Source of the DNA: Pseudomonadota bacterium
Lineage (GTDB): Bacteria > Pseudomonadota > Alphaproteobacteria > Rhizobiales > MH13
DNA: 64,000 nt
Assembly (NCBI GenBank): GCA_039024915.1
Contig: JBCCPK010000006.1
Location: forward strand, 186,001-250,000
Direction of reading: 5' to 3'
Shown here piece after piece: positions 22,001 to 24,887 of this stretch (positions are counted from its first letter, which is position 1; each line of letters starts with the position of its first letter). Position numbers and translations under genes: made by a program. The notes beneath the pieces are model-generated. The model was not told where the DNA came from. It ran no database searches and saw only the letters and a program-made list of their open reading frames with translations.

Positions 22001-22559
22001 TGCCATGGCGGCCAAATTCCACATAAAGGCGACCCTCAAACGGCTGCCTTAGACAGGCCAAGCGCGCCGCTGCACGGTCGCGGTCATCGTTCCATAGCGC
22101 CTCCCCGATTGGCCCGAATGCTCCGCCGGTAAGGCAGATGATGCCCGCAGTATACCCGGGCAGATCATCTAGCTGGAGACACGGCCCCCGCTCCTCAACC
22201 CGTTCATAGGCCCGTGACGCCAAGTGCATGAGGTTCTCGAAACCATCACTCGATTGCGCCAGCAAAACCAGTCCGGGTGGCGGCTCCCTCCGCTTGGTCT
22301 GGCCAATGGCAACATCCTGTGGGCCGTCGTGGCCGTCAAACGTGACGCCAATCTGCAAGCCGATAATCGGCTGGATACCAGCTGCTGCCGCCTTCTCGGA
22401 GAACTCAAGCGCACCGAAAAGATTGTTGGTGTCCGCGATTCCCAAAGCTGGCTGCCGATCAGCCTTTGCCAGAGCGATCATCTTCGCGATGGGGAGCGCA
22501 CCCTCCAGTAGCGAGTAGGCGGAATGCGTGCGTAAATGGACAAAGGGAAGCTCAGACAT
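19023..22559 (-). CDS. dnaE: DNA polymerase III alpha subunit (DnaE1)
   Basis: Replicative polymerase catalytic subunit. About 1178 residues: an N-terminal PHP domain (FVHLRTHSAYSLLEGAL, with the family's metal-site-like residues), the C-family polymerase core with the catalytic PDFDIDFCQDRRDEVI and GRGSGAGSVV motifs, a helix-hairpin-helix region, and a C-terminal OB domain (GTVADGFERRTRDGRSMAIL). Length and N-terminus match DnaE1 rather than the shorter mutagenic DnaE2/ImuC. I chose the ATG giving MSELPF; a GTG four codons upstream is possible, and neither has a strong ribosome site. It lies downstream of an SOS promoter and micro-ORF (stop at 22678), so part of its transcription may be damage-inducible. 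A weak TTGGTG-N16-TAAAGT promoter-like pair lies between them. Confidence 0.95.
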   Translation of the reverse strand: MSELPFVHLRTHSAYSLLEGALPIAKMIALAKADRQPALGIADTNNLFGALEFSEKAAAAGIQPIIGLQIGVTFDGHDGPQDVAIGQTKRREPPPGLVLLAQSSDGFENLMHLASRAYERVEERGPCLQLDDLPGYTAGIICLTGGAFGPIGEALWNDDRDRAAARLACLRQPFEGRLYVEFGRHGMEREAATEADMLAIAYDNGLPIVATNESFFPDRDDYEAHDALLAIAEGRLVSEDDRRRLTPLHGFASQEEMRERFSDLPEAIENTARIAMRCASRPKTSEPLLPRFTAGDANDGASFQLAAEAQALRQMATEGLKARVETNELAPGHSQQTYEERLQIELSIIEGMEFPGYFLIVADFIQWAKRQGIPVGPGRGSGAGSVVAWALTITDLDPLRFGLLFERFLNPERISMPDFDIDFCQDRRDEVIGYVQERYGHDRVAQIITFGTLQARAVLRDVGRVLEMPYGQVDRLCKLVPANPADPYTLERALAEVEALRKAREEPIVAKLLDLSLRLEGLHRHASTHAAGVVIADRPLEHLVPTYREAGTAMPVTQYSMKWVEPAGLVKFDFLGLKTLTIIQETLALLSKRDVEINLDTLPLDDPAAYDLYTRADTVGVFQVESAGMRRTLLSLRPDRFEDIIALVALFRPGPMANIPRFAAVKHGQEEPDYMHPLLEPVLKETYGIIVYQEQVMEIARVLSGFSLGEADMLRRAMGKKIRAEMQKQKARFLKGAEEKGHDAALISDIFEKVAKFADYGFNKSHAAAYALVSYQTAYLKANYPTEFLAASMTYDMANTEKLADFRQDAIARDIVVHPPSINHGGPRFDVRDGGIDYALSAIKGVGEQVAQHIVDLRQEHGPFTSIEDFVARINPRLIGKRPLENLIAAGVFDRLHPSRAQLTASVDRILGEAARQHDDRAQGQGGLFGDAPTPARDLILTCNEWPLAERLQKELASLGFFFSAHPLDDYEQLLKRMRVQTHQEFIEMMRGAAAGKAVPGRDEASGGEADDRRGALHAARLAGTVADGFERRTRDGRSMAILKLTDHSGLFEVAVYEEDIESFRTMNKQGNNLFVHVAGRLNDGDIRLRATRLELLDELAVSTPQRLQVFVNSVEAITTLHKRLEPGSRGEVSVVISDRDAGQEIEMLLPGSFKVDPARASALRSLTAQGIEHAELI

Positions 22560-22677: not shown

Positions 22678-22752
22678 TCAGCCAATCAGGCTGATGCAGA
22701 TCATCATTGCAGCGACAACACACAGGGCACATCCGTCACGCAATACAAGCAT
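22678..22752 (-). CDS. SOS-controlled 24-residue hydrophobic micro-ORF
   Basis: ATG at 22752, stop at 22678, 24 codons. The peptide starts MLVLRDGC and continues as an uninterrupted hydrophobic stretch (ALCVVAAMMICISLIG) that could span a membrane once; Cys at 8, 11 and 19. A perfect GGAGG lies 5 bases before the ATG (22758-22762). Directly upstream is a TTGACG-N17-CATAGT promoter whose spacer and start region are covered by two LexA boxes, predicting a leader of about 22 bases. The product is unrecognised. By size, hydrophobicity and regulation it resembles SOS-induced small membrane proteins such as Caulobacter SidA, a 29-residue division inhibitor, but no sequence relation is claimed. It could also act as a leader peptide for dnaE, 118 bases downstream. 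Confidence 0.6.
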   Translation of the reverse strand: MLVLRDGCALCVVAAMMICISLIG

Positions 22753-22767
22753 CACAACCTCCAATAA

Positions 22768-22809
22768 GAACAATACAAGAACTATGTTCCTATTTTGTTC
22801 TGTCGTCAA
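22768..22809 (-). promoter_or_regulatory. SOS promoter with two opposed LexA boxes
   Basis: On the minus strand: -35 TTGACG (22809-22804), 17-base spacer, -10 CATAGT (22786-22781). One box, GAAC-N7-GAAC (minus-strand reading, 22800-22786), fills the spacer and touches the -10. The other, GTTC-N7-GTTC (22782-22768), covers the transcription start. These are the alphaproteobacterial LexA consensus in opposite orientations, separated by 3 bases. LexA binding at either would block the promoter. It points at the micro-ORF and dnaE; lolD ends upstream, so no other gene starts here. Confidence 0.85.
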
Positions 22810-22846: not shown

Positions 22847-23557
22847 TTACGCTGGCAGCGTCACAAGATCATCGCCAGGAACGATCTGCGCATCCTTCAA
22901 TGTGATGATACGGTCGGCTTTGGCGGCCAGCTGCATGTTATGCGTCGCGATTAGAGCGGCGACACCTGCTGCGCGCACAAGGGACAACAGCACCCTGAAG
23001 ACATGGTCAGAGGTTGTTGGGTCAAGGTTGCCGGTTGGCTCATCGGCCAGAAGCAGATCCGGAGCGTTTGCCATCGCGCGCGCAATGGCTACGCGCTGTT
23101 GCTCACCGCCCGAAAGCTCAGCAGGGCGGTGATCGGCTCGCTGCCCAATCTGCAAATACTCAAGAAGCTCCTGCGCGCGCTCGGCAGCCTCACCTCTGTC
23201 GAGGCCCGCAATCAGTTGCGGCATCATCACGTTCTCCCGCGCGTCAAACTCGGGAAGCAGATGATGAAACTGGTAGACAAAGCCGATTTGCCTGCCCCGC
23301 ATGGCACTAAGCTGGGCATCATCAAGGCCGCTGGTGCGCTGGCCCGATATGAAGACGTTACCGGTGTCGGGCCGGTCCAGCAGCCCACAAAGGTGCAGCA
23401 AGGTGGACTTACCGGCACCAGAAGGCGCAACAAGCGCCACCAGCTCGCCGGATTGCACGGTGAAGTCCACCCCTTCAAGGATCTCAAGGCGCCCCACCCC
23501 ACTCTGAAATCCGCGCGACACACTCGAAAGCTGGAGCCGCGGCTCACCTTCACTCAT
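22847..23557 (-). CDS. lolD: Lipoprotein-releasing ABC transporter ATPase (LolD)
   Basis: ATPase of the LolCDE-type machine that extracts outer-membrane lipoproteins from the inner membrane for transfer to LolA. The 236-residue protein has Walker [13 protein letters not shown], the ABC signature [14 protein letters not shown] and Walker [13 protein letters not shown]. The start [14 protein letters not shown] overlaps the lolC stop by 8 bases; the frame opens 25 codons further upstream inside lolC but that part lacks family character. Paired with a single lolC/E-type permease here, as common in alphaproteobacteria. Confidence 0.94.
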
Positions 23558-24887
23558 AGCGAAGGGCCTCAACCGGATCGAGTCGCGCCGCGCGCCAGGC
23601 AGGATAAAGCGTTGCAAGCAGGGAGAGGACAAGAGCGATCAGCAGAATCGCAGTGGTCTCGACCGGATCCATATCCGCCGGCAGACGGGAGAGGTAATAC
23701 AGTTCAGGCGAGAAAAGCTCCGTGCGCGTCAAACTGGAGATCAGTTGCCGGATATTCTCTGCGTTGAGGCAGATGATGGTGCCGAGCACAAAGCCGCAAA
23801 CCGTGCCGACAAGGCCAATGCTGGCCCCCGTCATGACAAAGACCCGCAGGATCGCACCGCGAGACGCACCCATGGTGCGAAGAATGGCAATGTCGCGGCC
23901 CTTATCTTTGACCAGCATAATCATGCCTGAGACAACGTTGAGCGCCGCAACAAGAACGATCATCGTCAGGATCAGGAACATCACGTTGCGCTCAACCTCA
24001 AGCGCCGAGAAAAAGGTGAGATTGCGTTGGCGCCAGTCGATGGAAAAAACCGGACGATCAGCGGCATTTTCGATCTCGGCACGCAATTGCCCGATCGCGT
24101 CTGGGTCATCGACGTAAACATCGATACCCGACGCCGTCTCGCCCAAATTAAAGTATGCCTGCGCTTCAGAAAGTGGCATATAGACGAACACCAGATCGTA
24201 TTCGGACATGCCGATCTCGAAGATCGCTTGCACCTGGTACGCCTTGACGCGAGGCGTGACGCCGAAGGGCGTGACCGAACCGCGTGGCGTCACGATTGTG
24301 ACGCTGTCGCCGACGGTCACACCCAAGGTCGATGCGAGCCGTGAGCCGATCACAATGGTCTCTGCGGGCAAACCTTCAATGCCCCCAAAGCCGTCCAGCG
24401 TGCCCGACCTGATGGATTGAGACAGCGAAGGCAGCGCCCGAAGATCATCTTCGCTGACGCCGCGGACGATGACGCCGTTGCTGGCATTTGCACCCGACGC
24501 CAAGGCCTGACCTTCAACAAACGGCACCACAATCTGAACGCCATCAACCTCGGCCACTCGCTGCTGGACAGCGTCGAAATCATCTAGCGGACGATCGATC
24601 GCCTGCAGGACCAGATGGCCGTTGATGCCAAGGATCTTGTCGAGCAACTCCGCGCGAAAACCGTTCATCACCGCCATGACCACAATGAGCGTGGCAACGC
24701 CCAGCATGATGCCGACAAAGGAAAAGCCCGCAATGACCGATATGAAGGTCTCTTTGCGGCGCGCCCGCAGATAGCGCAGCGCGATCATTCGCTCGAACAA
24801 GCCAAAGGGTTGCGACGTGCGGATTTGGGGCTCAGCAGCACTTTGCGCGTCATAGCCAGCGGGGGAGGACGTAGTTTCAGTGGCCAA
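23550..24887 (-). CDS. lolC: Lipoprotein-releasing system permease (LolC/LolE family)
   Basis: Inner-membrane permease of the lipoprotein sorting ABC transporter. The 445 residues show the MacB/LolC layout: one N-terminal transmembrane helix ([33 protein letters not shown] region, about 46-78), a periplasmic domain, then three C-terminal helices. The first codon is TTG with GGAG 8 bases upstream; the nearby ATG at 24900 is out of frame. A later start near [13 protein letters not shown] (residue 34) is possible but would remove the N-terminal cytoplasmic tail seen in relatives. Overlaps lolD; proS lies 144 bp upstream. Confidence 0.93.

Follow-up and report, generated by a model that had tools for sequence, protein, structure and literature searches.

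The closest described system is SidA of Caulobacter crescentus, a 29-residue inner-membrane protein whose partner, according to the available text of PMC4211646, is FtsW and, to some extent, FtsN; mutations in ftsW and ftsI suppress SidA, F145L and A246T being ftsW suppressors, and A246T does so with binding retained. The filamentation of a lexA deletion was relieved by deletion of sidA (excerpt of PMC12700426), and a low-confidence model of the complex has SidA sitting on the FtsW helix TM7 (excerpt of PMC13396833). Caulobacter DidA resembles what is proposed here for the candidate: it is a small membrane protein, is induced by damage and inhibits the FtsW/I/N complex. It differs in having 71 residues, in being SOS-independent and in binding FtsN (available text of PMC4211646). 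The SOS-induced division inhibitors of Gram-positive bacteria, YneA, ChiZ, SosA and DivS, share the logic of a small membrane protein that is made upon damage and blocks septal synthesis (excerpts of PMC13396833 and PMC4211646). They are called unrelated genes in the latter excerpt, and are set apart from the present peptide by description, not by sequence. In the portions of the literature searched, no SidA homologues were reported outside the relatives of Caulobacter, and the gene upstream of dnaE described below was unreported in the order studied; an earlier notice of either is possible.

The window, by which we mean the whole stretch of 64,000 nucleotides analysed, carries a putative SOS-controlled micro-gene between a lolD-like gene and dnaE (Table 1). 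The arrangement reported in the initial annotation, TTGACG-N17-CATAGT, two LexA boxes, GGAGG and a hydrophobic ORF of 24 codons, was located in full on the minus strand at 22809-22678. The leader of 22 bases given with it stands as a prediction. The promoter matches the consensus at 9 of 12 positions, and the region holds one such promoter where its shuffles average 0.2. The LexA boxes face each other across three bases, a pair present in 5/5 genomes of the family. The encoded 24-residue peptide is strongly hydrophobic, with a best 15-residue Kyte-Doolittle mean of 2.86. When the composite was defined as a perfect A/T-rich box followed by a ribosome-binding site and, 3-75 bases on, a hydrophobic ORF of 18-48 codons, a search of both strands returned this one ORF in the window and none in 30 two-base-block shuffles of the window.

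Table 1. Features of the dnaE-upstream locus, with positions in the window
Feature	Position	Strand	Remark
-35 element TTGACG	22809-22804	-	Most aligned relatives have TTGAC here
LexA box 1 GAACAAAATAGGAAC, between -35 and -10	22800-22786	-	Perfect alphaproteobacterial box; predicted LexA site
-10 element CATAGT	22786-22781	-	Overlaps box 1 by one base and box 2 by two
LexA box 2 GTTCTTGTATTGTTC, facing box 1	22782-22768	-	In 5/5 genomes of the family; predicted LexA site
Ribosome-binding site GGAGG	22762-22758	-	5 bases ahead of the ATG
24-codon ORF, predicted single-helix SidA-like peptide MLVLRDGCALCVVAAMMICISLIG	22752-22678	-	ATG at 22752, TGA at 22680-22678
dnaE	22559-19023	-	ATG at 22559, 118 bases past the ORF
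lolD-like ABC transporter ATPase gene	22847..23632	-	Upstream of the micro-ORF; named by eye

The alphaproteobacterial LexA box has the form GTTC-N7-GTTC. The window holds this bare pattern five times where 2.3 would be expected (five was reached by 7 of 100 shuffles), and genome-wide the pattern's counts of 75+92 were not enriched over the 78+94 of the reversed control, so it was dropped as evidence by itself. Since the bare pattern is not enriched, the case rests on the combination of elements and on their conservation. Refined boxes of the form GTTCYNNNNWTGTTC were found at 17 places in the genome against 10 for the reversed control, a weak excess. LexA is encoded in the genome, and the perfect box GTTCTTGATGTGTTC lies upstream of lexA (L203). 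Some of the GTTCYNNNNWTGTTC boxes precede genes whose first 150 residues are related by NCBIfam to recA, uvrA, ssb (divergent) and radA, and one gene behind such a box, read by eye, looks like imuA, although NCBIfam assigned its first 150 residues to no family. The others among the 17 boxes stand before no recognisable SOS gene. By comparison, the two boxes of the window look like the LexA boxes of this genome.

Two further features of the genome were observed in the same search. A LexA-like GTTCYNNNNWTGTTC box lies directly ahead of a gene for a PA0069-type radical SAM protein (NCBIfam, first 150 residues; L003, G000:C1:156441). A few kb separate a second DnaE-type gene from a LexA-like box and from a frame that by eye resembles imuA (L045, G000:C8:58126; L215, G000:C8:54410), and together they probably form an SOS mutagenesis cassette.

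Within the genus of the window, the reading frame has not decayed behind retained boxes: it is intact and exactly 24 codons long in 4/4 members (the window and three other genomes), and its linkage to dnaE holds in all four. The dN/dS ratios ranged from 0.13 to 0.35 over six pairs of genus ORFs, values that are rough because dS is high (pS 0.62-0.69), and differences at codon positions 1, 2 and 3 amounted to 0.41, 0.19 and 0.59. By these measures the amino-acid sequence of the peptide, beyond the frame alone, is judged to be under purifying selection. The genus peptide, that of the window included, lacks the Trp and the C-terminal tail that most relatives have; L047, from another genus of the same family, keeps the full motif.

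The conservation of the locus was then followed in 143 regions upstream of dnaE, a non-random set of 10 named loci, 70 regions of the order, 60 of other orders and three SidA-type loci. The 70 regions of the order comprised four genus members, one family member, 25 chosen by dnaE score and 40 taken mostly one per family, and some named loci seem identical to sampled ones (L035/L091, L040/L255). By a fixed rule, a box, a ribosome-binding site and a hydrophobic ORF of 18-48 codons were found together in 52/143 regions and on the reverse strand in 0/143, with 0.05 positives expected from letter shuffles of the regions. The positives came from the same order (42/70), other orders (4/60), named loci (5/10) and SidA-type loci (1/3), and 24 of the 45 sampled families of the order contained at least one. 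Degenerate or boxless relatives (families f11 and f44) were left out of the 52, and the peptides of L036, L114 and L118 were included manually. The sampled order appears to be Hyphomicrobiales-like, with Tepidamorphus, Afifellaceae and Hyphomicrobiales MAGs among the named relatives. In an alignment of promoters (49 chosen, 48 yielding sequence), the -35 TTG, GAACAAAA...GAACAT and the final T of the -10 element were each kept in at least 69%. The peptides of the relatives have (R/K)(D/E)..AL in common, with a near-invariant F and usually a W. The kept boxes, promoter, ribosome-binding site, length and frame give good support to the first proposal, that the micro-ORF is truly coding and under SOS control.

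A profile of 38 peptides, A1, was run on whole genomes at E 0.001 and matched 89/199 genomes of the order, 31 of which had supplied profile rows. Most of its matches (74/92) share the strand of dnaE and fall in the 2 kb upstream of it, and 43 of these 74 are from genomes without a profile row, a few of the peptides being identical to a row. Among the rest, one is in the same 2 kb but on the opposite strand and six are elsewhere, one of these 2.5 kb upstream of dnaE; for 11 of the 92 the place of dnaE was unlisted, and it was then found adjoining in 7/11. In the class sample, 6/289 genomes matched, that of the window included, and the genus members G001 and G002 fall below the threshold despite their plain ORFs. 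At two matches (L248 and L258) a box with a mini-ORF was lacking, and both were discounted as probably due to chance. Neither NCBIfam nor Pfam gave a match for the window peptide, and of nine peptides searched against Pfam eight gave no family; the gas-vesicle match of the remaining one was below the cut-off and was taken as chance.

Variant forms of the peptide were also detected. In family f11 a SidA-like helix closes longer open frames of 93, 136 and 204 residues (L222, L223, L224), which are possibly an N-terminally extended form of the peptide. In family f23 a 28-residue SidA-like copy with a perfect LexA box and a ribosome-binding site lies away from dnaE, near-identical in three genomes (L245, L246, L247). 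In family f44, genus g71, the LexA box of the SidA-like peptides is decayed or missing (L249, L250, L251, L261); three of these loci adjoin dnaE and one, L251, shows no dnaE.

The SidA model, NCBIfam NF033228 with 29 positions, scored above its curated cut-off in 1/385 genomes of the class and in 1/14 named controls, and seven named controls, Caulobacter vibrioides among them, matched it at all. At E up to 1 it matched 136/385 class genomes, and all but one of these matches were treated as weak because they are mostly partial and scattered. Among 30 loci listed, 10 were inspected and the three adjoining dnaE (L113, L114, L118) were used. L113, the sole SidA above the cut-off in the 385 genomes, follows the end of a lolD-like gene, precedes dnaE and has a LexA box ahead of it; its family appears to be Caulobacteraceae. 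The weaker matches L114 and L118, of the same family, are upstream of dnaE with two boxes each, and the gene upstream of L118 differs by eye from lolD. The locus of the window thus has the position upstream of dnaE found in L113, L114 and L118, and has, as they do, LexA boxes at its promoter, in its own case two perfect, predicted sites. In Caulobacter, dnaE is CC1926 (available text of PMC1839093) and sidA is CCNA_02004 (available text of PMC10769358).

NF033228 gave no match to the window peptide, hence no score reaching the cut-off, and the only match to NF033228 at E up to 1 in the genome of the window is at another place (C2:600944, E 0.478). Of the 38 relatives, three matched NF033228 at E up to 1, the SidA-type L113 being one, and L033 scored 15.1 bits against a cut-off of 35. 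A profile built from the order only, without Caulobacter-type members, gave L113 16.2 bits, with 0/4000 shuffles as good; it did not separate the SidA-type L114 (5.8 bits; 31 and 62 of 2000 shuffles as good) and L118 (2.0 bits; 283 and 447 of 2000) from shuffles. The alignment of the order set with the SidA set by hhalign had a probability of 75.5 (E 2.4e-5). L047 scored 28.8 bits against a profile without members of its family, and on this sequence comparison is regarded as the bridge from the family of the window to the SidA-like peptides. Against a profile from which its own family was left out, the window peptide reached 11.6 bits (equalled or bettered by 1 and 3 of 2000 shuffles), and 4.6 bits when the rows of other orders were also removed (22 and 66 of 2000); the genus set gave an hhalign probability of 10.7. 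Taken alone, the window peptide appears only weakly SidA-like, and since its own profile and hhalign scores are low, the case for its homology comes chiefly from the gene position, the operator and L047 as bridge. The initial annotation had seen no basis for homology with SidA. This was too cautious in view of the position, the LexA operator and the profile link via relatives, evidence that is weak for the 24-residue peptide itself. CC1926 and CCNA_02004 we take to be neighbours in Caulobacter crescentus.

Compared with Caulobacter crescentus SidA, the locus shares the SOS operator and the tiny single-helix peptide, both predicted here, the place upstream of dnaE, as observed in L113, L114 and L118, and, in most relatives, the R(D/E)..AL motif and the F. 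It differs in having 24 residues rather than 29, in the missing Trp and tail, in the missing NF033228 match and in its two facing boxes. The gene in the window is probably repressed by LexA and probably encodes a short and divergent SidA relative, an SOS-induced division inhibitor acting on FtsW. In the undamaged cell, LexA on both boxes would cover the promoter, as their position suggests. Upon damage LexA would be cleaved, the promoter would fire and the peptide would be made from the GGAGG/ATG start, to be inserted as one transmembrane helix with its charged RD near the cytoplasmic N-terminus. By homology with SidA, its partner would be FtsW within the assembled divisome, and it would keep septal synthesis switched off until repair had finished. 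The genome has an FtsW-like gene that scores 336.1 bits, just below the cut-off of 337.5.

A membrane toxin similar to TisB or DinQ, induced by the SOS response and lowering the membrane potential with no specific divisome target, is an unlikely explanation. TisB is a LexA-controlled membrane toxin under antisense RNA control. DinQ is described likewise in the source excerpt, and both are SOS membrane peptides of enterobacteria. The peptide is small, hydrophobic and, by prediction, LexA-controlled as they are, but the position of its gene and the profile link tie it to SidA. No antisense gene was noticed in passing.

The peptide may instead be a leader of dnaE, with the boxes rendering dnaE inducible by damage and with dnaE expression adjusted, through attenuation or coupling, by translation of the mini-ORF. 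The mini-ORF precedes dnaE on the same strand, and dnaE may share a transcript with it because the gap of 118 bases has no terminator-like site; across genomes, 74/92 A1 matches are likewise upstream of dnaE on its strand. An attenuator was rejected, there being neither a terminator-like site in the gap nor an unusual fold in the stretch from leader and ORF to dnaE (z 0.77). The constant linkage on the dnaE strand to be expected of a leader was not observed. The distance from A1 match to dnaE match ranges from 46 to 1607 bases, and in G087 an oxidoreductase-like ORF and a regulator-like ORF on the opposite strand (names by eye) separate the peptide from dnaE. In G097 (family f11) the peptide frame is inverted relative to dnaE and forms the end of an ORF of 93 residues, which is preceded on its own strand by two boxes. 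In G136 and G071, and likewise in G106, a copy with a perfect box and a ribosome-binding site lies off dnaE, at another place or on another contig. Selection on the amino-acid sequence as well as on the frame also speaks against a leader, and we consider this explanation improbable.

Little credence is likewise given to a real SOS micro-protein of the same locus family with a target in the divisome or membrane other than FtsW. The short variant of the genus, lacking Trp and tail and weakly similar to the rest, may have switched its partner, but the bridge L047 of the same family retains the full motif. A chance ORF behind chance boxes is very improbable, for although GTTC-N7-GTTC is not enriched in the genome and the ORF has a mere 24 codons, its length, frame and codon pattern are conserved, and the composite was found in 52/143 dnaE-upstream regions against 0/143 on the reverse strand and in 0/30 shuffled windows.

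Beyond the divergent SidA relative predicted in the window, a broader history may apply, with odds a little below even: SidA would be no peculiarity of Caulobacter but an ancient checkpoint gene of alphaproteobacteria, located where lolD meets dnaE. The order studied, which is large, would have kept it in roughly half of its sampled families, and the genus of the window would have stripped it down to a helix of 24 residues lacking Trp and tail. NF033228 was above its cut-off in 1/385 class genomes, whereas A1 matched 89/199 genomes of the order, and if the reading is right, position and operator together can expose homologous micro-proteins that lie under profile cut-offs. A large bacterial group for which no SOS division inhibitor was found reported in the portions of the literature searched would then have one. 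Few known division inhibitors would be as small as the bare 24-residue helix, and the relatives would provide dozens of natural variants for mapping how the SidA peptide acts on FtsW.
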